Source of the DNA: SAR202 cluster bacterium
Lineage (GTDB): Bacteria > Chloroflexota > Dehalococcoidia > Lucifugimonadales > UBA3495
NCBI GenBank assembly: GCA_013204585.1
Contig: JABMNL010000037.1
Span: forward strand, 44,409-108,408
Length of the DNA: 64,000 nt
Direction: 5' to 3'
Positions within the stretch are counted from its first letter, which is position 1. Each line of letters begins with the position of its first letter. The notes under the pieces are model-generated. The model saw only the letters and a list, made by a program, of their open reading frames with translations, did no database searches and was not told where the DNA came from. Below, in pieces: positions 39,827 through 53,228 of this stretch. The position numbers were made by a program, and so were the translations under genes.

Positions 39827-40774
39827 ATGGCGCTAGGCAACACCAGCGGATTCCACGCCTGGTTCAGGGGAATATCCGCCTTTACTGTCCTTGCCGCATT
39901 TGCCTTGGTCATCATCGGCGGGATTGTGCGAGTCACCGGGTCGGGCCTGGGATGCCCTGATTGGCCGGGTTGCGACGGCGGCATCTTTCCTCCCTGGGAA
40001 ACCAAAGCCCTAATCGAGTACTCCCACCGGATTACGGCATCGTTCGTGGTCGGTCCGCTGATATTGTTTCTGTTCATCTCCGCCTGGGTGCGGTACCGGC
40101 GAGAGCTGTGGGTATTAATTCCTACAACGTTGGCCTTTGTCTTGGTCATTGCCCAAGCAGCGTTGGGCGGGGCCACGGTGCTTACCGAACTGCCCGGTGC
40201 TACCGTCATGGCCCACTTGGCCGTCGGCGAAGCCTTGGTGGCCTGCCTGGTCGTACTAGCCGTGGTGGCCTACCGAGGCCCACTGCAACTAGAAAAACCC
40301 GATTGGGCGACTGGCAAGACTGGCAAGTTTCCTACCCTGGCGGTAATCGCGGGTGTGGCGGTATTTTTGCTGCTTCTTTCTGGTTCCTACGTAACCATCA
40401 GCGGGTCCACCGGAGCATGTTTCGAGTGGCCTTTATGCCAGGGCGAAATATTCCCAGACCACCGGCTTCAACTCATTCACATGATTCACCGTTACATAGC
40501 TGGCATTGTGGGCCTGTTCGTCTTGTATAGTCTGCATCTCGGATTTAGGGGGAAGACCCAGCCTTCTGAGATACGTGTCTTTTCCATGATTTCCGTGGCG
40601 CTCATCGTCGCGCAAGTTATAGCTGGCGCTTGGGCCGTCCAGTCCGACTTCAGCCAAGAAGCCCGCGCCCTGCACCTGGCCTTGGCAACTGGAGTCTGGA
40701 TTGCCGTCTCTGGACTCGTTGTGCTGATATTCTCCAAGCCCGGTATCAGGTGGAGCGGAATATCCCGTGGCTGA
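39827..40774 (+). CDS. ctaA: Heme A synthase (CtaA/COX15)
   Basis: The 315-residue, eight-TM protein oxidises the C8 methyl of heme O to make heme A for cytochrome oxidase. Heme-ligand histidines are in EYSHRITAS and MAHLAVGEA of the first half and in LIHMIHRY and ALHLALATG of the second. The loop motifs TGSGLGCPDWPGC and STGACFEWPLCQG carry the paired cysteines. It leads ctaA-ctaB, with an 8-base overlap to ctaB. Confidence 0.95.
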   Translation: MALGNTSGFHAWFRGISAFTVLAAFALVIIGGIVRVTGSGLGCPDWPGCDGGIFPPWETKALIEYSHRITASFVVGPLILFLFISAWVRYRRELWVLIPTTLAFVLVIAQAALGGATVLTELPGATVMAHLAVGEALVACLVVLAVVAYRGPLQLEKPDWATGKTGKFPTLAVIAGVAVFLLLLSGSYVTISGSTGACFEWPLCQGEIFPDHRLQLIHMIHRYIAGIVGLFVLYSLHLGFRGKTQPSEIRVFSMISVALIVAQVIAGAWAVQSDFSQEARALHLALATGVWIAVSGLVVLIFSKPGIRWSGISRG

Positions 40775-41684
40775 GCATGTCGAAGCTGGCCTGCCTGCCC
40801 ATGAAAACCACAGCGGTCTCATTGCCTTGGGTAAAGATTACCTAACCCTCACCAAGCCACCGATAATAATTCTCCTGGTCATTACGGCCATTGGCGGAAT
40901 GTTCCTCGCAGCAGAAGGGGTTCCTTCGCTCCGGATCCTCGCCTTGGTCTGCATCGGAGGGGCGCTGGGCGCCGGCGGGGCAAACGCCATCAACCACTTC
41001 CTGGACCAAGACATCGACGCAGTGATGTCCAGAACGGTGAAACGGCCGGTGGCCAGCAATCGCATCTCCCCAATCCACGCTCTAATCTTCGGCATTGCGC
41101 TAAATGTTGGGTCATTCTTAATTCTGACCTACGGGGTCAACCTGCTATCCGCCTGTCTCACTATGTCCGCCACGTTGTTCTACGTCTTGATTTACACCGG
41201 CTGGCTCAAACGCAACACCCCACAAAATATCGTGATTGGGGGTGCAGCCGGTTCCATACCGCCGATGGTCGGCTGGACCGCAGTGACCGGGTCCGTAGAC
41301 CTACCCGCCGTTTACCTATTCACCATCATCTTCTTCTGGACCCCGCCCCACTTTTGGGCACTGGCCCTGATGATTAAAAATGATTACCATGCAGCGGGCA
41401 TACCCATGCTCCCGGTGGTCATGGGAGTAGAGCGGACCGTACAGAACATCTTCACCTACAGCCTGGCGCTGGTAGCCCTAACGTTGGTTTTCGCCACTAC
41501 GGACGCAGTGGGCCTAATCTATTTGGCATCTGCCGCAGTCTTGGGCGCAGTGTTTATCCTGATGGCTTGGAACCTCAAAAGGGACCAGACAACCAAGAAG
41601 GCCAAACATCTGTATCTATACTCGCTGCTCTATTTGGCGCTTTTGTTCGCCGTTATGTTGGCCGACGCCGTATTCCGGTTTTAG
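40767..41684 (+). CDS. ctaB: Protoheme IX farnesyltransferase (heme O synthase)
   Basis: The 305-residue UbiA-family prenyltransferase has nine TMs. The first Asp-rich motif is NAINHFLDQDIDAVMSRTVK, with the second loop YTGWLKRNTPQNIVIGG and AAGSIPPMVGW. It attaches farnesyl to protoheme to give heme O, the substrate of CtaA. The GTG start lies inside the end of ctaA, so the genes are coupled. The oxidase structural genes follow with their own promoter. Confidence 0.95.
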   Translation: MAEHVEAGLPAHENHSGLIALGKDYLTLTKPPIIILLVITAIGGMFLAAEGVPSLRILALVCIGGALGAGGANAINHFLDQDIDAVMSRTVKRPVASNRISPIHALIFGIALNVGSFLILTYGVNLLSACLTMSATLFYVLIYTGWLKRNTPQNIVIGGAAGSIPPMVGWTAVTGSVDLPAVYLFTIIFFWTPPHFWALALMIKNDYHAAGIPMLPVVMGVERTVQNIFTYSLALVALTLVFATTDAVGLIYLASAAVLGAVFILMAWNLKRDQTTKKAKHLYLYSLLYLALLFAVMLADAVFRF

Positions 41685-41721: not shown

Positions 41722-41749
41722 TTGACAGGCGTGCCGGGGCTGTGATAAT
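41722..41749 (+). promoter_or_regulatory. Near-consensus promoter of the ctaCDEF operon
   Basis: TTGACA (41722-41727), a 16-base spacer ending in TGT, and GATAAT (41744-41749) make an extended -10 promoter. The predicted transcript start near 41756 lies after the first in-frame start codons of the ctaC frame (41742-41750), so those cannot be used from this promoter. Confidence 0.7.
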
Positions 41750-41882
41750 GTCCCCGGAGATTAGTGAAAATTCGCACACACTACGCTCAAATGACGATTA
41801 TTCCACGGTCAAAATGGCCTCATTGGAACGATTAGCCGAAAGCGTGGTAGACGAGCTAAATAAAGCTCAGGGGGAGTCACAA

Positions 41883-43082
41883 ATGGGGCTGTTGCCCTTC
41901 CGGCGGACAGGAAACGTTTCCGAGCAGTCCGTCTCGAACACTACCAAGTCCATAGGACGCCGCAGTAGTCTGAAGAACCGTTCGGTTATTTTTGGTCTAT
42001 TGGCGGCCCTTTTCTTGTTTGCCGTCGGTTGCAGCAAAGACGGCATGTCCCCATTTGATCCGATGGGTCCCGTCGCCGCCAAACAACTCGACCTTTTCAA
42101 CGTCCTAATGTGGGTCATGGTCATTGTTTTCGTCCTGGTTGAAGGCGTTCTTCTCTACGCCATCATCCGGTACCGAAAGCGCCCCGGCCAAGCAAAGCCG
42201 CCCCAGACCCATGGCAATACATCACTAGAAATTACCCTGACGATAATCCCGACCATCTTAGTCTTGGGATTAGCCATCTGGTCCGTCTTCACCCTGTTTG
42301 ACCTACAAGACCCGCCTGAAGGGTCTCCAGAAGCCTTGCACGTAAATGTCACCGGCCACCAATGGTGGTTTGAGTTCGAATACCCTGACGCGGGCAACGG
42401 CAAAAAGATTATTACCGCCAATGAGCTGCGGATACCGGTTGACCGCCCCATCACATTGAGCTTGGAATCTGACGACGTGATTCACAGCTTCTGGGTTCCC
42501 AAGCTGGCTGGTAAGCTGGATATGATTCCGACCCACACCAACGAAATGTGGTTCCAGGCCGACTCGGATAAAATTAACGATGACTTGCCCGTAACTCTGT
42601 ACGGACAGTGCGCCGAGTTGTGCGGTCTGTCCCATGCATTGATGAAGTTCCAAGTCACAGTCATGGACCAAGCAGACTTTGATTCTTGGGCAGCAGCCTA
42701 CGGGCCACCGCCCACCATCTCGGCAAGAGCTAAAGCGGGGCAAGCGGTCTTCGCGGCCAATTGCACCCTATGCCATACCATTGACGGCCCCGATGACCCG
42801 GTGCTTTCGGCCAGTCGATTAACCGGTTTCTTAACCGGGGGTGACATCACCCCTGTTCCCGCGCCCAACCTGACTGACCTCAGGACCCGGCATACCTTGG
42901 CAGCGGGTTTGGTTGACCTCTCAGAGACCAACCTTCTCTCATGGTTGCACGACCCCAGTGAGATTAAAGCTAACAACTACATGTCCCAACGGGCCGTGAT
43001 GTACAAAACCGAAACCGGGACGTCTAACCTTACTAACGAAGAAATAGATGCCCTAATTGGGTATCTGCTAGACCTGCAATAG
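41883..43082 (+). CDS. ctaC: caa3-type cytochrome c oxidase subunit II with fused cytochrome c
   Basis: With ATG 41883 (GGGGAG six bases upstream) the protein is 399 residues. It has a lipoprotein signal with lipobox FAVGC (Cys50), two TMs (about 71-95, 117-138), and a CuA domain. CuA ligands are His201, Cys243, Glu245, Cys247, His251 and Met254 (CAELCGLSHALM). A C-terminal class I cytochrome c follows (about 282-399; heme motif CTLCH at 294-298). This is the caa3 architecture, taking electrons from soluble or membrane donors. Upstream in-frame starts at 41742-41748 fall within the promoter. Confidence 0.95.
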   Translation: MGLLPFRRTGNVSEQSVSNTTKSIGRRSSLKNRSVIFGLLAALFLFAVGCSKDGMSPFDPMGPVAAKQLDLFNVLMWVMVIVFVLVEGVLLYAIIRYRKRPGQAKPPQTHGNTSLEITLTIIPTILVLGLAIWSVFTLFDLQDPPEGSPEALHVNVTGHQWWFEFEYPDAGNGKKIITANELRIPVDRPITLSLESDDVIHSFWVPKLAGKLDMIPTHTNEMWFQADSDKINDDLPVTLYGQCAELCGLSHALMKFQVTVMDQADFDSWAAAYGPPPTISARAKAGQAVFAANCTLCHTIDGPDDPVLSASRLTGFLTGGDITPVPAPNLTDLRTRHTLAAGLVDLSETNLLSWLHDPSEIKANNYMSQRAVMYKTETGTSNLTNEEIDALIGYLLDLQ

Positions 43083-43156: not shown

Positions 43157-44995
43157 ATGGCAGCTATAACCAGCGTCATACCACGACCAACCAGTTACGA
43201 AGGCCTTTGGGGCTGGATGACGACGGTCGACCACAAGCGCATTGCTGTGCTTTACGGTGTCACCGCGTTCATCTTCCTGTTAATTGCGGGCCTCGAAGCC
43301 GGTGTAATCCGCATGCAATTGGCCAGCGCCGACAGCACTCTGGTTAGCCCAGGCCGATTTAACCAGATGTTCACCATGCACGCCACCACCATGGTGTTCA
43401 TGGTTATCATGCCACTGTCAGTCAGCTTCTTTAACTTCGTAATACCTCTAGCGATTGGGGCACGGGATGTTGCATTCCCAAGACTTAATGCGTTGAGTTA
43501 CTGGATTTTCCTATTCGGCGGGATTCTCCTACACATGAGTTTCGTCGTAGACCAGGTGCCGGACGCCGGTTGGTTCTCCTACGCCAACCTCACTGAGAAA
43601 CCCTTTAGCGTGGACCGAGGCTTGGACTTCTGGTCCATCAGCCTCTTGGTTCTGGGTACATCGTCCGTCGCTGGTGGCCTGAACTTCATTGTGACGATTA
43701 TCAACATGCGCGCGCCGGGCATGTCCATGATGCGCATGCCGGTCTTCGTTTGGATGACGTTAATTACGTCGATTTTGCTAGTCCTAGCCTTCCCGGTTAT
43801 TACGGTCGGCTTAATTGAACTGACAATGGACCGGAACTTCGGAACCCACTTCTTCATCCCAGCGCAAGGTGGCGACCCCATTCTCTGGCAGCACCTGTTC
43901 TGGGTCTTTGGCCACCCTGAAGTCTATATTCTGATATTGCCGGCCATGGGAATAGTTTCGGAGATCCTGCCGACCTTCTCGCGAAAGCCTTTGTTTGGCT
44001 ACCCGTTCGTCATATTCTCCGGAATCGTCATCGCCATCATGGGCTGGGCGGTCTGGAGCCACCATATGTTCACCGTCGGCCTCGGGCCGGTGGCAAACTC
44101 TGTCTTCACCATTACGACCATGCTGATTGCAGTCCCAACTGGCGTGAAAATATTCAACTGGATTGGCACCCTATGGCGAGGGGCGCTCGAGTTCACAACT
44201 CCCATGATGTTCGCCTTGGGATTTGTGGCGCTGTTCATCATTGGCGGTCTAAGCGGCGTGTCCCACGCTGTTTCACCGTCTGACTTCCAGCAACAAGACA
44301 CTTATTACATCGTCGCCCATATCCACTACGTGCTCTTTGGCGGGTCGATGTTTGGAATCTTCGCCGGTACGTATTACTGGTTCCCCAAGATAACGGGAAA
44401 GATGCTAAACGAAACTCTCGGAAAGATTAATTTCTGGCTGCTGTTTATCGGCATGAACCTAACGTTCTTCCCGATGCACTTCCTCGGATTAAACGGAATG
44501 CCCCGCCGTATCTACACCTACACCGCAGAGTTCGGCTGGGAGTACCTGAACCAGATAGCCAGCTTTGGCTACCTAGTCCTTCTAATTGGCATCTTGGTCT
44601 TCATGTACAACGTTTGGCAGTCCCGTAACTCGCGGCACGTTGGCCACGATCCTTGGGACGCCCCTGGAATAGAGTGGAGCATTGCTTCACCGCCCCCGCC
44701 GTATAACTTTGCAGAAATCCCCCAGGTTCTGGGCCGCGACCATTACTGGATTGTCAAAGAAAACGCGGAAGCTGCCGGGACTCCCATCACAGGACCCGAG
44801 CCTACTGTAGATCCTAAGTCAATTCACATGCCCAGCCCATCGTACTGGCCGTTATTCACCGCGGTTGGCGTTGCGCTAATTGGTGGCGGACTGCTTTCCC
44901 ATTTTGCCCTCAGTTTTGTGGGCGGAGCCATAGCTTTCGTGGGTGTAATCGGTTGGAGCAACGAGCCCGCCGCCGCGCCCAACGACCACCACTAG
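43157..44995 (+). CDS. ctaD: Cytochrome c oxidase subunit I, type A1
   Basis: The 612-residue heme-copper oxidase core has all the metal ligands. His75 (MFTMHATTM) and His390 bind the low-spin heme. CuB is bound by His253 of GHPEVY and His302-His303 (SHHMF), with Tyr257 cross-linked. His388 (VAHIHY) binds heme a3. The Glu in HPEVY and the GARDVAFPRLNALSYW segment mark the A1 class with D and K proton channels. About twelve TMs are followed by a C-terminal extension with two further TMs (about 570-605). Confidence 0.97.
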   Translation: MAAITSVIPRPTSYEGLWGWMTTVDHKRIAVLYGVTAFIFLLIAGLEAGVIRMQLASADSTLVSPGRFNQMFTMHATTMVFMVIMPLSVSFFNFVIPLAIGARDVAFPRLNALSYWIFLFGGILLHMSFVVDQVPDAGWFSYANLTEKPFSVDRGLDFWSISLLVLGTSSVAGGLNFIVTIINMRAPGMSMMRMPVFVWMTLITSILLVLAFPVITVGLIELTMDRNFGTHFFIPAQGGDPILWQHLFWVFGHPEVYILILPAMGIVSEILPTFSRKPLFGYPFVIFSGIVIAIMGWAVWSHHMFTVGLGPVANSVFTITTMLIAVPTGVKIFNWIGTLWRGALEFTTPMMFALGFVALFIIGGLSGVSHAVSPSDFQQQDTYYIVAHIHYVLFGGSMFGIFAGTYYWFPKITGKMLNETLGKINFWLLFIGMNLTFFPMHFLGLNGMPRRIYTYTAEFGWEYLNQIASFGYLVLLIGILVFMYNVWQSRNSRHVGHDPWDAPGIEWSIASPPPPYNFAEIPQVLGRDHYWIVKENAEAAGTPITGPEPTVDPKSIHMPSPSYWPLFTAVGVALIGGGLLSHFALSFVGGAIAFVGVIGWSNEPAAAPNDHH

Positions 44996-45007: not shown

Positions 45008-45625
45008 TTGGCCCACGCAATAGAGCACGAATATACGACCACCGGTTTAAACCACCGGAAGATGCTCATGTGGGTATTTTTGGGGTCGGACTGTCTTTTC
45101 TTCGGCTCATTAATCGCCACCTACATGGTCTACCGCGGCCAAAGCCTAGTCGGCCCGTACCCGGTAGACATCATCAACGTTCCTGTAACGACTATCAGCA
45201 CCTTCGTGTTGCTGTTGAGCAGCTTCGCCATGGTGCAAGCCCTGGCAGCAACCCACGCCGATAATAGACGCGCGATAGTCGGCTGGCTTCTAGCCACCGC
45301 ATTCTTGGGCGCGATATTCATCGGATTTCAGATAGTAGAATTCAACACCTTCAAGAATGAGGGTCTTACCCTGGGCGGCAACCTGTTTGGCGCAACCTTC
45401 TTTACCCTGACCGGTTTCCACGGCGCTCACGTGACACTGGGTATCATCTGGCTCGTGGCTCTGGCCATACTCGGCAAGAAGGGCCGACTTGGCCCTAACA
45501 CTGCACTAGACGTCGAACTCTGCGGCCTATATTGGCACTTTGTAGACATCGTCTGGATTGTCATCTTCACGCTGCTCTATCTGATTGGCGGCTTCGATGC
45601 CGGCCCTGCTCCCCTGGGCGGCTAA
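45008..45625 (+). CDS. ctaE: Cytochrome c oxidase subunit III
   Basis: The 205-residue protein has five TMs, the short bacterial form of subunit III. Typical segments are KMLMWVFLGSDCLFFGSLI near the N-terminus, FTLTGFHGAHVTLGIIW, and the end LYWHFVDIVWIVIFTLLYL. It stabilises subunit I and its proton uptake. The start is TTG with GGAG eight bases upstream, 12 bases after the ctaD stop. Confidence 0.95.
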   Translation: MAHAIEHEYTTTGLNHRKMLMWVFLGSDCLFFGSLIATYMVYRGQSLVGPYPVDIINVPVTTISTFVLLLSSFAMVQALAATHADNRRAIVGWLLATAFLGAIFIGFQIVEFNTFKNEGLTLGGNLFGATFFTLTGFHGAHVTLGIIWLVALAILGKKGRLGPNTALDVELCGLYWHFVDIVWIVIFTLLYLIGGFDAGPAPLGG

Positions 45626-45679: not shown

Positions 45680-46480
45680 ATGGCCCATCAAACAGAACAT
45701 ACAACAAACCATCCCTCGACCAAACAATATGTGACGATTGCGATAATCTTATTCGCCATCACCATTGTTGAATTCCTGCTAATTTGGGATCGGGTCGGAA
45801 TCGCCGATGACCTTGGCGCTTCCAAGATACCGCTGCTGGTTGCACTGTCAGCGGTTAAATTCGCCATCGTCATCCTGTTCTACATGCACCTGAAGTTCGA
45901 CAACCCCTTCTTCTTGAGGGTATTCGTCGCTGGTTTAACTCTCGCGTTCTTGGTTGGGATAGCAGTCATCAGCCTATTCGTCGGCTTCGAAGGCAAACCA
46001 CGAACGTTCGCACAGAATACGGCCGTTCCCTACGAAGAGCACGCAGAAAAAGACAGTGGCGAGGCCGTGACTGGCGAGACCGGTGCCAAGGAAACGGACA
46101 CCCCGATAATGACTGGTCCAGTAACCCTGGTCGTGGGTGTAGCAGGTGAGACCCTTGGCTTTGACACCCAGAGCATAACTGCCGCCTCGGGTGCCGAAGT
46201 AACTATTAGCGTCACCAACCCCTCGGCCAACAACTCCCATAACCTGGTCATTGTTAAGGCAGGAACCAAAGATGCCGTGGCGGCTGACGGCACCGCTGCC
46301 GGTCCGACGAACGACTGGGTGACCCCAGGAGATTCGAGGGTCATTGCACATACCAAGCTGCTTACCCCCGGAGTAGACGGTGAAGTAACCTTCACTGCGC
46401 CCGCGCCGGGCACCTACCAGTTTGTCTGCACGTTCCCCGGTCACAACTTCACCATGTTCGGTGACTTTGTAGTCAACTAA
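45680..46480 (+). CDS. Cytochrome c oxidase subunit IV (CtaF) fused to an azurin/auracyanin-like cupredoxin
   Basis: Residues 1-105 form a three-TM subunit IV: EFLLIWDRVG, KFAIVILFYMHLKFDNPFF, and a third TM about 80-102. After a charged linker (about 105-145) comes a beta-sandwich cupredoxin (about 146-266). Its type 1 copper ligands are His187 (NSHNLVIV), Cys250, His255 and Met259 (CTFPGHNFTM). The C-x4-H-x3-M spacing is that of azurin. Normal CtaF is about 100 residues, so this is a true fusion in one frame. A weak hairpin (45653-45666) covers the Shine-Dalgarno sequence. The domain could pass electrons to CuA or the fused cytochrome c of CtaC. Confidence 0.9.
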   Translation: MAHQTEHTTNHPSTKQYVTIAIILFAITIVEFLLIWDRVGIADDLGASKIPLLVALSAVKFAIVILFYMHLKFDNPFFLRVFVAGLTLAFLVGIAVISLFVGFEGKPRTFAQNTAVPYEEHAEKDSGEAVTGETGAKETDTPIMTGPVTLVVGVAGETLGFDTQSITAASGAEVTISVTNPSANNSHNLVIVKAGTKDAVAADGTAAGPTNDWVTPGDSRVIAHTKLLTPGVDGEVTFTAPAPGTYQFVCTFPGHNFTMFGDFVVN

Positions 46481-46499: not shown

Positions 46500-46534
46500 A
46501 AAAAGGCCCCGCTGTTTTTCAGCGGGGCCTTTTT
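46500..46534. terminator. Bidirectional terminator after the cta operon
   Basis: A perfect 15-bp stem (46500-46514 with 46520-46534) begins with an A-run and ends with a T-run. It is shared with the convergent kinase-like gene. Confidence 0.95.
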
Positions 46535-50377: not shown

Positions 50378-51481
50378 TTGACCACAGACAGCCTCCAGAC
50401 CGCCCTTTTCGACACCCACGTCTCCCTGGGCGGTCGTATGGTGCCCTTCGGCGGTTGGGACATGCCGGTGCAATACCCCGAAGGCATCTTGGCCGAGGTA
50501 AAAGCCGTCCGCACCGCCACTGGCGTGTTCGACGTTTCCCACATGGGCCGACTCTACCTTTCCGGCCCAAAAGCCACCGAATTTCTTGACTGGGTGCTCA
50601 CTGGCTCCGCATCCACCCTCCGCGTGGGCCGCGCCCGGTACTGCATGATTTGCAACGAGAAAGGCGGGGTCATCGACGACACCATCTTTTACCGCCTTTC
50701 CGAAGACCGTTACCTTCTGATTCCCAACGCTGGCAACCGCCCAGCGGTTGTCGCCTGGTTCCAGCGCTGGATTGACGAGAAATTCTCTCCAGGCTGCATC
50801 ATGGAGGATGTCACCACCTCGACCGGCCTACTCGCCTTCCAAGGCCCCGGCACGCCCGATGCCATGGACAAGCTGGCCGACAAGCCGGTTTCGGAGATTC
50901 GACCCTTCTCTTGGACTGAGAGGGCCATTCAGGGCGCTCCAGTGCTCGTGGGTCGCACCGGTTACACCGGAGAAGATGGCTTCGAAATGATGATCCAGGG
51001 CAACGATGTGGTCAAAGTCTGGACTGCCCTCACCGACTCCGGCGCCGTACCTTGCGGACTGGGCGCCAGAGACGTTCTGCGGCTGGAAGCGGCGTTGCCC
51101 CTGCACGGTCACGAGATAAACGAAGAAACCACCCCAATCGAAGCTGGCCTAGACCGGTTCGTACGCTCCGAAGGCCGGTACCTTGGTTCCGATGTTCTGC
51201 AACGCCAGCAAGAGAATGGAGTCGAACGCAAACTGGTCGGGTTTACCCTGCCCGGACGCAGCGCCCCACGCGCTGGGTATAGCCTGCTCCATCAGGGCGA
51301 GATTATCGGCATTGTAACCAGCGGCAGCTATTCGCCAACCCTTGACACCAGCATCGGCATGGGCTACGTTTTGGAGCGTCATGCTGAGCCTGGAACCCCA
51401 CTAGATTTGGACATCCGGGGCCGCACTGCCCAAGTGACATTAACTGAGCTTCCCTTTTATTCTCGGCCGAGGAGGTCCTAG
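50378..51481 (+). CDS. gcvT: Glycine cleavage system T protein (aminomethyltransferase)
   Basis: The 367-residue T protein moves the aminomethyl carbon from lipoyl-H protein to tetrahydrofolate, releasing ammonia. Typical segments are MVPFGGWDMPVQYPEGI, GVFDVSHMGRL, RTGYTGEDGFEM, and ARDVLRLEAALPLHGHEI. It starts with TTG; GGGAG lies 11 bases upstream, a little far. First gene of gcvT-H-PA-PB. No glycine riboswitch is visible in the 166-base spacer before it. Confidence 0.95.
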   Translation: MTTDSLQTALFDTHVSLGGRMVPFGGWDMPVQYPEGILAEVKAVRTATGVFDVSHMGRLYLSGPKATEFLDWVLTGSASTLRVGRARYCMICNEKGGVIDDTIFYRLSEDRYLLIPNAGNRPAVVAWFQRWIDEKFSPGCIMEDVTTSTGLLAFQGPGTPDAMDKLADKPVSEIRPFSWTERAIQGAPVLVGRTGYTGEDGFEMMIQGNDVVKVWTALTDSGAVPCGLGARDVLRLEAALPLHGHEINEETTPIEAGLDRFVRSEGRYLGSDVLQRQQENGVERKLVGFTLPGRSAPRAGYSLLHQGEIIGIVTSGSYSPTLDTSIGMGYVLERHAEPGTPLDLDIRGRTAQVTLTELPFYSRPRRS

Positions 51482-51486
51482 GCAAA

Positions 51487-51876
51487 GTGAGTCCCGAAGA
51501 CCGCAAATACACACAAGAACACGAGTGGATCAAGGTTGAAGACGTAGCAACCAAGACCGCTGTGGCTGGCATCACCGACTTCGCCCAGGACCAACTTGGG
51601 GACATCGTATATTTCGAGCTGCCCAAGGTCGGCGAAAACGTAACCCACCTGGTCAAGATGGGCGAGGTTGAATCGGTAAAGGCCGTTTCGGACCTATTCT
51701 CCCCCATCACGGGCGAGGTATCCGAGATTAATGAAAAGCTGTTGGACCATCCGGAACTGGTCAACCAAGACCCTTTCGGTGAAGGCTGGCTCATCAAAGT
51801 CACTATGAACGACGTGGCAGAGGCTGAAGGGCTAATGTCGGCCCAAGATTACGACGCCTACACCGCTGGACTGTAA
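51487..51876 (+). CDS. gcvH: Glycine cleavage system H protein
   Basis: The 129-residue lipoyl carrier has the lipoylated Lys in GEVESVKAVSDLFSP, preceded by the strand LGDIVYFELPKVG and followed by GEVSEINEKL. It shuttles the aminomethyl group between GcvP and GcvT. It starts with GTG 5 bases after the gcvT stop and overlaps gcvPA as TAATG. Confidence 0.97.
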   Translation: MSPEDRKYTQEHEWIKVEDVATKTAVAGITDFAQDQLGDIVYFELPKVGENVTHLVKMGEVESVKAVSDLFSPITGEVSEINEKLLDHPELVNQDPFGEGWLIKVTMNDVAEAEGLMSAQDYDAYTAGL

Positions 51877-53228
51877 TGACCACAACCCGGCCCGGCGCTG
51901 CGGGAACTGGCGAAGACCACTTCCAGTCCCACTACATCCCGAATACCACTGACGAACAAGCCGAGATGCTGGCTGCATTGGGCATCAACTCCATTGACCA
52001 GCTTTTCGCCGATATTCCGGCCGAGTTTCGCAACCCGACCCTAAACCTGCCTACTCCGCTGTCCGAACTTGAGATACAGCGTGAATTAGGCGGCATGGCG
52101 GCCAAGAACCGCCCCTTGGGTAGTGGGCCTTCGTTCTTGGGAGCCGGTTCTTACAACCACTTTATCCCCGCCATCGTAAAATCGTTGATAACCCGTGGCG
52201 AGTTCATCACCGCCTATACGCCATACCAGGCTGAAGCCAGCCAGGGCACCCTGCAGGTTATCTACGAGTTCCAAACACTAATATGCAACCTCTACGACAT
52301 GGAGGTGGCCAACGCTGGCATGTATGACGGAGCGACCAGCCTGGCCGAGGCCGCATTGATGGCCTGTCGCGTGACCAAGCGAGGAAAAGTCGCCTTAGCC
52401 GACACCGTTTCTCCGGCCTATTCCGCCGTGATTCGCACCTACTGTCAATCCCAAGATATTGTAGTTGAGACCGTTAACCCATCTGCGCCTGCCTTGGACG
52501 ACCAAACCGCTTGCTTGGTGCTGCAATACCCCAATTATTTCGGGTACATCGAAGACCTGCAATCACTGGTGGACACCGCTCATCAACAGGGCGCATTGGC
52601 GGTGGTTTCCTGCGACCCAACGGCAATGGGCATGTTTCAAACTCCCGGCCACTACGGGGCCGACATTGTCACCGGCGAAGGACAGCCCCTAGGAATACCG
52701 CCTAGCTACGGTGGGCCGTATGTCGGCCTGTTCGCCACTAAGCAACAATACATCCGGCAGATGCCCAGTCGGCTCTCGGGTCGTACTGTGGACAAGAACG
52801 GCAAGATTGGCTACGTTCTCACCCTCCAAACCCGGGAACAGCACATACGCCGCGAGCGGGCCACGTCCAACATCTGCACCAACGAGGCACTCTACGCCTT
52901 AGCATCCACCGTCTACCTATCGGCCATGGGCAAACAAGGTATGCGCCAAGTCGCCGAATTGTGCTACCACAAGGCCCATTACGCAGCGTCTCAAATTAGC
53001 GACCTACCAGGCTATAGCCTTCCTATTTCCAGCCCCTTCTTCCAGGAGTTCGTTATCCAGTGCCCCGTCGCCCCGGCCGAGATTAACCGAAAATTGATGG
53101 AAAAGAACATCCTGGGCGGTTTGGACGTGAGTAATCAAATGGCCAACGGCATGCTGCTCTGCGTGACTGAAGTGAGCATCAAAGAGGACATTGACGCCTT
53201 GGTGGCAGCCCTGGCGGAGTTCAAGTAA
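51876..53228 (+). CDS. gcvPA: Glycine dehydrogenase (decarboxylating) subunit 1
   Basis: The 450-residue N-terminal half of the P protein belongs to a two-subunit enzyme. Characteristic blocks are HYIPNTTDEQAEMLAALG, GAGSYNHFIPAIVKSL, FITAYTPYQAEASQGTLQ and MYDGATSLAEAALMACR. It carries the catalytic fold without the PLP lysine, which sits on GcvPB. Its start and stop overlap gcvH and gcvPB as TAATG, so stoichiometric translation is likely. Confidence 0.96.
   Translation: MTTTRPGAAGTGEDHFQSHYIPNTTDEQAEMLAALGINSIDQLFADIPAEFRNPTLNLPTPLSELEIQRELGGMAAKNRPLGSGPSFLGAGSYNHFIPAIVKSLITRGEFITAYTPYQAEASQGTLQVIYEFQTLICNLYDMEVANAGMYDGATSLAEAALMACRVTKRGKVALADTVSPAYSAVIRTYCQSQDIVVETVNPSAPALDDQTACLVLQYPNYFGYIEDLQSLVDTAHQQGALAVVSCDPTAMGMFQTPGHYGADIVTGEGQPLGIPPSYGGPYVGLFATKQQYIRQMPSRLSGRTVDKNGKIGYVLTLQTREQHIRRERATSNICTNEALYALASTVYLSAMGKQGMRQVAELCYHKAHYAASQISDLPGYSLPISSPFFQEFVIQCPVAPAEINRKLMEKNILGGLDVSNQMANGMLLCVTEVSIKEDIDALVAALAEFK

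Follow-up and report, generated by a model that had tools for sequence, protein, structure and literature searches.

The final gene of a cytochrome oxidase operon in the genome of a SAR202 cluster bacterium was found to encode subunit IV (CtaF) joined to a cupredoxin domain with a complete set of type 1 copper ligands. The CtaF-cupredoxin fusion is a common trait of the lineage and no rarity. It is fairly probable that the cupredoxin works as a tethered arm, which would carry electrons from alternative complex III (ACIII) to the heme c/CuA of CtaC in the same caa3 oxidase. The window, that is, the whole stretch of 64,000 nucleotides analysed, holds the fusion gene with these parts:

45680..46480, + strand: ctaF-cupredoxin fusion gene, 266 amino acids, final gene in the cta row
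45719..45985, + strand: CtaF part with three predicted transmembrane helices (Pfam COX4_pro, hydropathy, AlphaFold model)
45986..46114, + strand: acidic linker, residues 103-145 (AlphaFold pLDDT <50 at 120-145)
46115..46477, + strand: predicted auracyanin-like type 1 copper (cupredoxin) domain (PF00127; 2aan, E 3.4e-24; Foldseek)
46238..46240, + strand: codon of His187, copper ligand 1 (invariant in 45/45 aligned fusions)
46427..46456, + strand: ligand loop Cys250-x4-His255-x3-Met259 (CTFPGHNFTM; motif in 176/179 domains)

Fusion gene and oxidase operon

The frame starts with ATG, includes its stop codon, and has no internal stop. The CtaF assignment follows from a COX4_pro (PF03626) match at residues 19-92 (32.6 bits, cut-off 28.9). 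Since the NCBIfam model caa3_sub_IV (TIGR02229) gave 22.2 bits, below its cut-off of 37.25, the CtaF part was filed under the broader COX4_pro only. Residues 150-265 match Copper-bind (PF00127) with 49 bits (cut-off 21.2). An earlier note on this DNA, made from the sequence alone, had called the ligand loop azurin-like. The C-x4-H-x3-M spacing is indeed present, but the best solved relative of the domain is auracyanin A (2aan), and the domain was not filed as an azurin because its score with the NCBIfam azurin equivalog (TIGR02695) was 71.7 bits against a cut-off of 105.1. The four residues that the note had named as ligands (His187, Cys250, His255, and Met259) lie where it had placed them and make up the complete His-Cys-His-Met set, without exception in an alignment of 45 fusion proteins picked from the 120 homologues listed. 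Judging from these residues, the domain is a predicted type 1 copper cupredoxin of the auracyanin kind and would bind copper.

An AlphaFold model was built from the alignment of the 45 fusions. It predicts three helices in the CtaF part (residues 14-35, 46-67, and 76-102), a disordered linker (pLDDT below 50 in the region 120-145), and an auracyanin fold, whose beta sandwich has block-mean pLDDT values of 83-96 from residue 151 onward. Together with the frame and the two Pfam matches, these helices bear out the uninterrupted joining of a three-helix CtaF to a cupredoxin that the note had read. The full chain has a mean pLDDT of 76.8 and a pTM of 0.47, and thus the relative placing of the CtaF and cupredoxin parts is not predicted. 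In Foldseek, the sandwich matched auracyanin A (2aan) with a TM-score of 0.94 by target length, an rmsd of 1.3, and 44% identity; the second auracyanin match was 6kol (38% identity, rmsd 1.6). The loop charges of the CtaF helices did not decide which membrane side holds the tail. Cytochrome c biogenesis matures heme c on the outer (positive) side of the membrane. Since the heme c tails of the relatives would need maturation there, the CtaF tail is probably located on that side.

With the fusion gene, the upstream oxidase genes form a row in the order ctaA-ctaB-ctaC-ctaD-ctaE-ctaF, as expected from the note, in which the fusion closes a caa3 operon:

39827..40774, + strand: CtaA-like protein of the COX15-CtaA family (profile match)
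40767..41684, + strand: CtaB-like protein of the UbiA family (profile match; the CtaB name is from gene position)
41742..43082, + strand: CtaC, subunit II, with a CuA motif and a C-terminal cytochrome c (COX2 + Cytochrom_C; CTLCH, Met ligand kept)
43157..44995, + strand: CtaD, subunit I (the sole COX1 match in the genome, which is 92% complete)
45008..45625, + strand: CtaE, subunit III (profile match)
46500..46534, + strand: hairpin and T run directly 3' of ctaF (read from the sequence)

The hairpin is likely the end of the operon, and it is absent from the output of a terminator scan. CtaD passes the A-type model CtaD_CoxA (701.1 bits, cut-off 670.75). The oxidase thus combines an A-type CtaD with a CtaC that has both the CuA motif and the cytochrome c domain claimed by the note, which makes it a caa3-type enzyme. 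The Met ligand of the CtaC heme c is retained in 48 of the 49 rows examined, including all 15 copper-tailed rows. Therefore, the CtaF copper would add to, rather than replace, the CtaC heme, and the oxidase may have two electron-entry domains, the CtaC heme c and the CtaF cupredoxin. The N end of CtaC looks lipobox-like by eye. Farther downstream in the window (50378-53228), there are frames that resemble, also by eye, the glycine cleavage T, H, and P1 proteins.

Distribution of the fusion and apparent exchange of the tail metal

Is the fusion common in relatives of this bacterium? The same domain pair was found in 11 of the 12 genomes of the genus, own genome counted; in the twelfth (G010, 78% complete), neither the fusion nor CtaD was found. 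The fusion protein has a match somewhere in 95 of the 99 genomes searched, again with the own genome counted. A protein database yielded 991 relatives, and among the 120 listed, all have a cupredoxin and 119 also have a CtaF part. The C-x4-H-x3-M motif is present in 176 of the 179 cupredoxin domains of the listed proteins and loci. The exceptions are P0039, in which Ile replaces the Met ligand, P0093, whose end diverges from the family beyond CTFPG, and the plastocyanin-like L123.

Two other explanations were rejected. A frameshift, chimera, or assembly artefact is ruled out by the recurrence of the fusion in the 11 genus genomes and the 119 listed homologues. A copper-free CtaF extension is ruled out by the retained ligands (45/45 aligned proteins; motif in 176/179 domains). 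The earlier note had considered that the C-terminal part could be a common extension lacking copper ligands: the tail is common, but in the family it bears either the full type 1 copper set or heme c.

Among the operons fetched for the 50 family genomes, 14 genomes (G000-G009, G011, G013, G016, and G024) have a cupredoxin as the CtaF tail and 31 have a heme c domain (CxxCH). One genome (G026) has a tail-less CtaF, and its CtaC is also without heme c. CtaF was not found in the fetched operons of G010, G015, G028, and G029: G010 and G028 have no CtaD match either, the G029 contig stops after CtaE, and the only CtaD of G015 is a distant one (42% identical). In this tally G022 was counted once; its second copy (L032), partly masked and without a readable heme motif, was scored as heme by its likeness to L031. 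At the order level, where 13 of 49 genomes were fetched, four have a heme tail (G058, G060, G061, and G063) and none has a copper tail. Iron saving was weighed as a possible reason for the use of copper; according to record titles, some heme-tailed relatives are also from open water.

Could the tail be a mere docking or anchoring module, with its copper or heme idle in turnover? CtaC already has heme c and a CuA motif, and two entry domains seem redundant. However, the domains found at this CtaF position in the 45 tailed family genomes are exclusively redox domains (14 copper and 31 heme c), and the ligand loop is retained in the 176 domains mentioned above. An idle module is therefore very improbable.

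Next to the single auracyanin-like domain, other kinds of arms were found. Two cupredoxin domains in tandem are present in 31 of the 119 CtaF fusions among the matches listed, and the CtaF tails of P0256 and P0257 have two heme c motifs (with Pfam matches for P0256). Thus, tandem arms occur with either metal. A search with L102 gave 57 proteins (P0121-P0177), 56 of which have the C-x4-H-x3-M loop. In L123 (L123:6914-7651) and its relatives (among P0200-P0252), CtaF is joined to a plastocyanin-like cupredoxin. A C-x2-PGH-x3-5-M loop is found in 52 of the 58 proteins listed for this group, including four that match just the copper profile; the names of the group point to Anaerolineae for three members and to Chloroflexi or Chloroflexota for others. 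The plastocyanin-like version is apparently an independent fusion, a case of convergence.

To place the tails on the oxidase core, a tree of the CtaC core, CtaD, and CtaE was made with 53 rows, leaving out the distant outgroups and L036. In this tree, the 43 family rows, 29 with heme and 14 with copper, group as one clade. Within it, a subclade of 17 rows (support 100/98) unites all the copper rows with three heme rows; here, the heme-tailed L042 is sister to the copper-tailed L085 (94/73) and the heme-tailed L033 and L041 adjoin the genus of the window (92/68). A single clade of all 14 family copper rows was rejected (p-AU 0.00078, at a cost of 64 log units). Since copper and heme tails interleave on the core tree and one copper clade is rejected, the tail metal was apparently exchanged more than once in the family. 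One gain of copper followed by two returns to heme is also possible; neither the AU test nor the trees tell gain from loss. The simplest reading of the tree is that heme is the older state in the family.

A tree of CtaF only, which has few columns, places the transmembrane part of L042 among the copper-tailed rows (fork support 88), and this CtaF part is 73% identical to that of L074. From these positions in the two trees, it follows that at least L042 has a different tail on a closely kin anchor and oxidase. L033 and L041 lie outside the copper-tailed rows in the CtaF-only tree. Their heme tails (G023 and G033) show 33-45% identity to the best tails beyond the pair, with a divergent transmembrane part, while the heme tail of L042 is 58-83% identical to its six best matches. 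This hints at a separate acquisition of heme c in L033 and L041. L102 also has a related cupredoxin on CtaF, and its oxidase clusters with tail-less rows, with support of 99 in a CtaD tree and 100/100 in the core tree. The CtaD tree was restricted to loci with a CtaD of 350 amino acids or more, which excluded the heme-tailed G025, G032, and G038 in the family; of the duplicate loci L091-L122, it kept L102 only.

A cupredoxin tree was made from 76 domains out of 179. Of the 32 two-domain proteins, 14 contributed each of their domains; single domains were sampled in steps, and the locus domains were included except for L123. Five lipoproteins of the genus form their own clade, and most forks are without resolution. 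This tree gives no count of copper-domain acquisitions and no support for an origin from the free lipoprotein.

Comparison with known systems

Oxidases are usually fed by a small carrier or through a heme c built into subunit II. The caa3 oxidases with a CtaC-cytochrome c fusion are of the same type as the SAR202 enzyme, whose CtaC has that fusion; what differs is the second redox domain on subunit IV, with copper here and heme in many relatives. The CtaF-cytochrome c proteins of other genera of the family (for example, L042 and L083) share the subunit, the position, the gene row, and a similar tail length with the CtaF-cupredoxin fusion, but have heme c rather than a type 1 copper domain. The auracyanins of Chloroflexus and Roseiflexus are the closest solved structures; they are separate proteins, whereas the auracyanin-like domain here is part of an oxidase subunit.

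The closest precedent is haloarchaeal. In Halobacterium and Haloarcula, halocyanin is described as fused to subunit IIa of the ba3 (B-type) oxidase and as the redox partner of ba3 (PMC3128077). In both cases, covalent fusion joins a blue copper carrier (predicted in SAR202) to a heme-copper oxidase through one of its small membrane subunits. In contrast to that archaeal B-type oxidase, with a one-helix IIa at the C end of halocyanin as described there, the SAR202 fusion is bacterial and consists of a three-helix CtaF (COX4_pro) with a C-terminal cupredoxin beside a CtaD of the A-type (CtaD_CoxA). Its oxidase also has its own heme c on CtaC, and heme c is an alternative on CtaF in relatives.

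Added cytochrome c or cupredoxin domains are also reported on nitrite reductases of Chloroflexi (PMC8756737). As described, these are carrier domains of both kinds on terminal reductases in the same phylum, although the enzyme is a different one and has no oxidase subunit IV. Fusions of COX1 with COX4 and of COX2 with cytochrome c are reported as well (PMC4013037). In a literature search, mostly at the level of titles and the openings of abstracts, no description of a cupredoxin or heme c tail on CtaF was found. Thus, a blue-copper carrier on an oxidase subunit has a known precedent, while the CtaF tail with copper or heme c is apparently undescribed. Surveys of carriers can miss such fusions; for example, an azurin survey, according to its text, excluded every match longer than 200 residues (PMC8779525). 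An article that treats SAR202 respiration has neither the word cupredoxin nor the word auracyanin in its main text (PMC5596340). At 250 m depth in one oceanic data set, a mean of 10.7% of the annotated transcripts belonged to SAR202 (PMC6769238), and in the available text of that article plastocyanin is named for Prochlorococcus only. A carrier domain on subunit IV with iron or copper among close relatives is a natural experiment that bears on the requirements of an electron-entry domain, and it makes the feeding of the oxidase in SAR202 testable.

Proposed electron donor and function of the arm

Where would the electrons come from? The own genome has an ACIII gene row (L180) encoding a multiheme ActA, ActB, two NrfD-like proteins, ActD, and a mono-heme ActE. 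The identification is based on the gene order, the NrfD pair, and Pfam matches for ActA, ActB1, and ActE; the ActC protein scored 25.4 against an NrfD cut-off of 25.8. The subunit names follow the known gene order. ActA is found in 48 of the 50 family genomes, and thus ACIII is common to the copper- and heme-tailed lineages. In two of the 50 (G015 and G029), ActE is fused to a related cupredoxin (L194:9671-10726 and L193:2376-3260, respectively) with 52-55% identity to the domain of the window. ActA, B1, B2, C, F, D, and E all match in the ACIII rows of these two genomes. P0189 is a third ActE-cupredoxin protein.

A free auracyanin-like lipoprotein was also found in the own genome (L179, contig 27); its last 23 residues are identical to those of the fused domain. 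It was missed by a PF00127 search of the genome and was found with a protein query. Outside CtaF, a free cupredoxin was found in 13 of the 14 copper-tailed and five of the 31 heme-tailed genomes (E up to 1e-6), a count that would let distant cupredoxins escape and that excludes a G044 match that spans just query residues 18-93 and does not reach the copper domain. After correction for kinship, a sign test of tail type against free cupredoxin was not significant with only three independent contrasts, of which, in most draws, two were concordant, none was opposite, and one was without difference.

One kind of cupredoxin is thus encountered as a free protein, on ActE where electrons would leave ACIII, and on CtaF where they would enter the oxidase, which is the strongest hint that it carries electrons from ACIII to the oxidase. 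Auracyanin is proposed to be the electron carrier from ACIII in Chloroflexus in an article that describes ACIII and auracyanins (PMC3150298). In the tethered-arm reading, the CtaF cupredoxin would accept electrons leaving ACIII, dock on CtaC, and pass them to its heme c/CuA entry. The tether would hold a small carrier at the enzyme, and either metal could serve the same job. This reading builds on features read directly from the sequences: the fusion and its ligands, the heme c and CuA motifs of CtaC, the ACIII genes, the free lipoprotein, and the heme c domain that relatives have in place of the cupredoxin. This interchange of heme c and copper on CtaF, together with the cupredoxin on ActE, lends better support to the idea of two entry domains. 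As a counterpoint, a second entry point is in principle not needed when CtaC already has heme c.

Alternatively, the arm may store copper or act as a copper chaperone, supplying CuA or CuB while the oxidase is assembled, and carry no electrons. Some cupredoxin-like proteins handle copper, and the arm belongs to an oxidase subunit whose gene lies among the oxidase genes. On the other hand, the Cys-His-His-Met ligand set is of the auracyanin/azurin type; heme c, which cannot deliver copper, takes the place of the arm in relatives; and a related domain is attached to ActE of ACIII, a complex that is not known to contain copper. A role in copper delivery is hence hardly to be expected.

The partner of the arm may also be other than ACIII, such as a cytochrome b/Rieske unit or an extracytoplasmic reductase. 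The own genome has a Rieske/cytochrome b cluster together with an ethylbenzene-dehydrogenase-like protein (L183) and, next to a protein resembling a multicopper oxidase by eye, further cupredoxin lipoproteins. Nevertheless, ActE of ACIII is the only other respiratory-complex fusion noticed for this cupredoxin, and a partner other than ACIII appears unlikely.

In a broader reading, subunit IV of these oxidases might generally be a redox arm whose metal is interchangeable and which, together with the ActE domain, would form a relay of tethered carriers from ACIII to the oxidase, for which a free carrier is maybe unneeded; I consider the chances of this even. Here, the same three-helix anchor and linker would bear heme c domains or auracyanin-like domains, in each case one or two, or a plastocyanin-like domain, and the domains would have replaced one another repeatedly while the oxidase core otherwise stayed conserved.

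Several other loci deserve mention. In L183:5638-8293 (contig 26, upstream of the window), genes for the ethylbenzene-dehydrogenase-like protein, a cytochrome b, and a Rieske protein lie in a row; this row may be an additional quinol-oxidising unit next to ACIII. On contig 11 of the own genome, L181:5430-13170 encodes two cupredoxin proteins, one of which is joined to a gluconolactonase-like region, and they adjoin the 1428-residue multicopper-oxidase-like protein labelled by eye. Four more cupredoxin frames, 168-421 amino acids in length, were found in G005, which belongs to the genus, on contigs 28, 49, 69, and 142.
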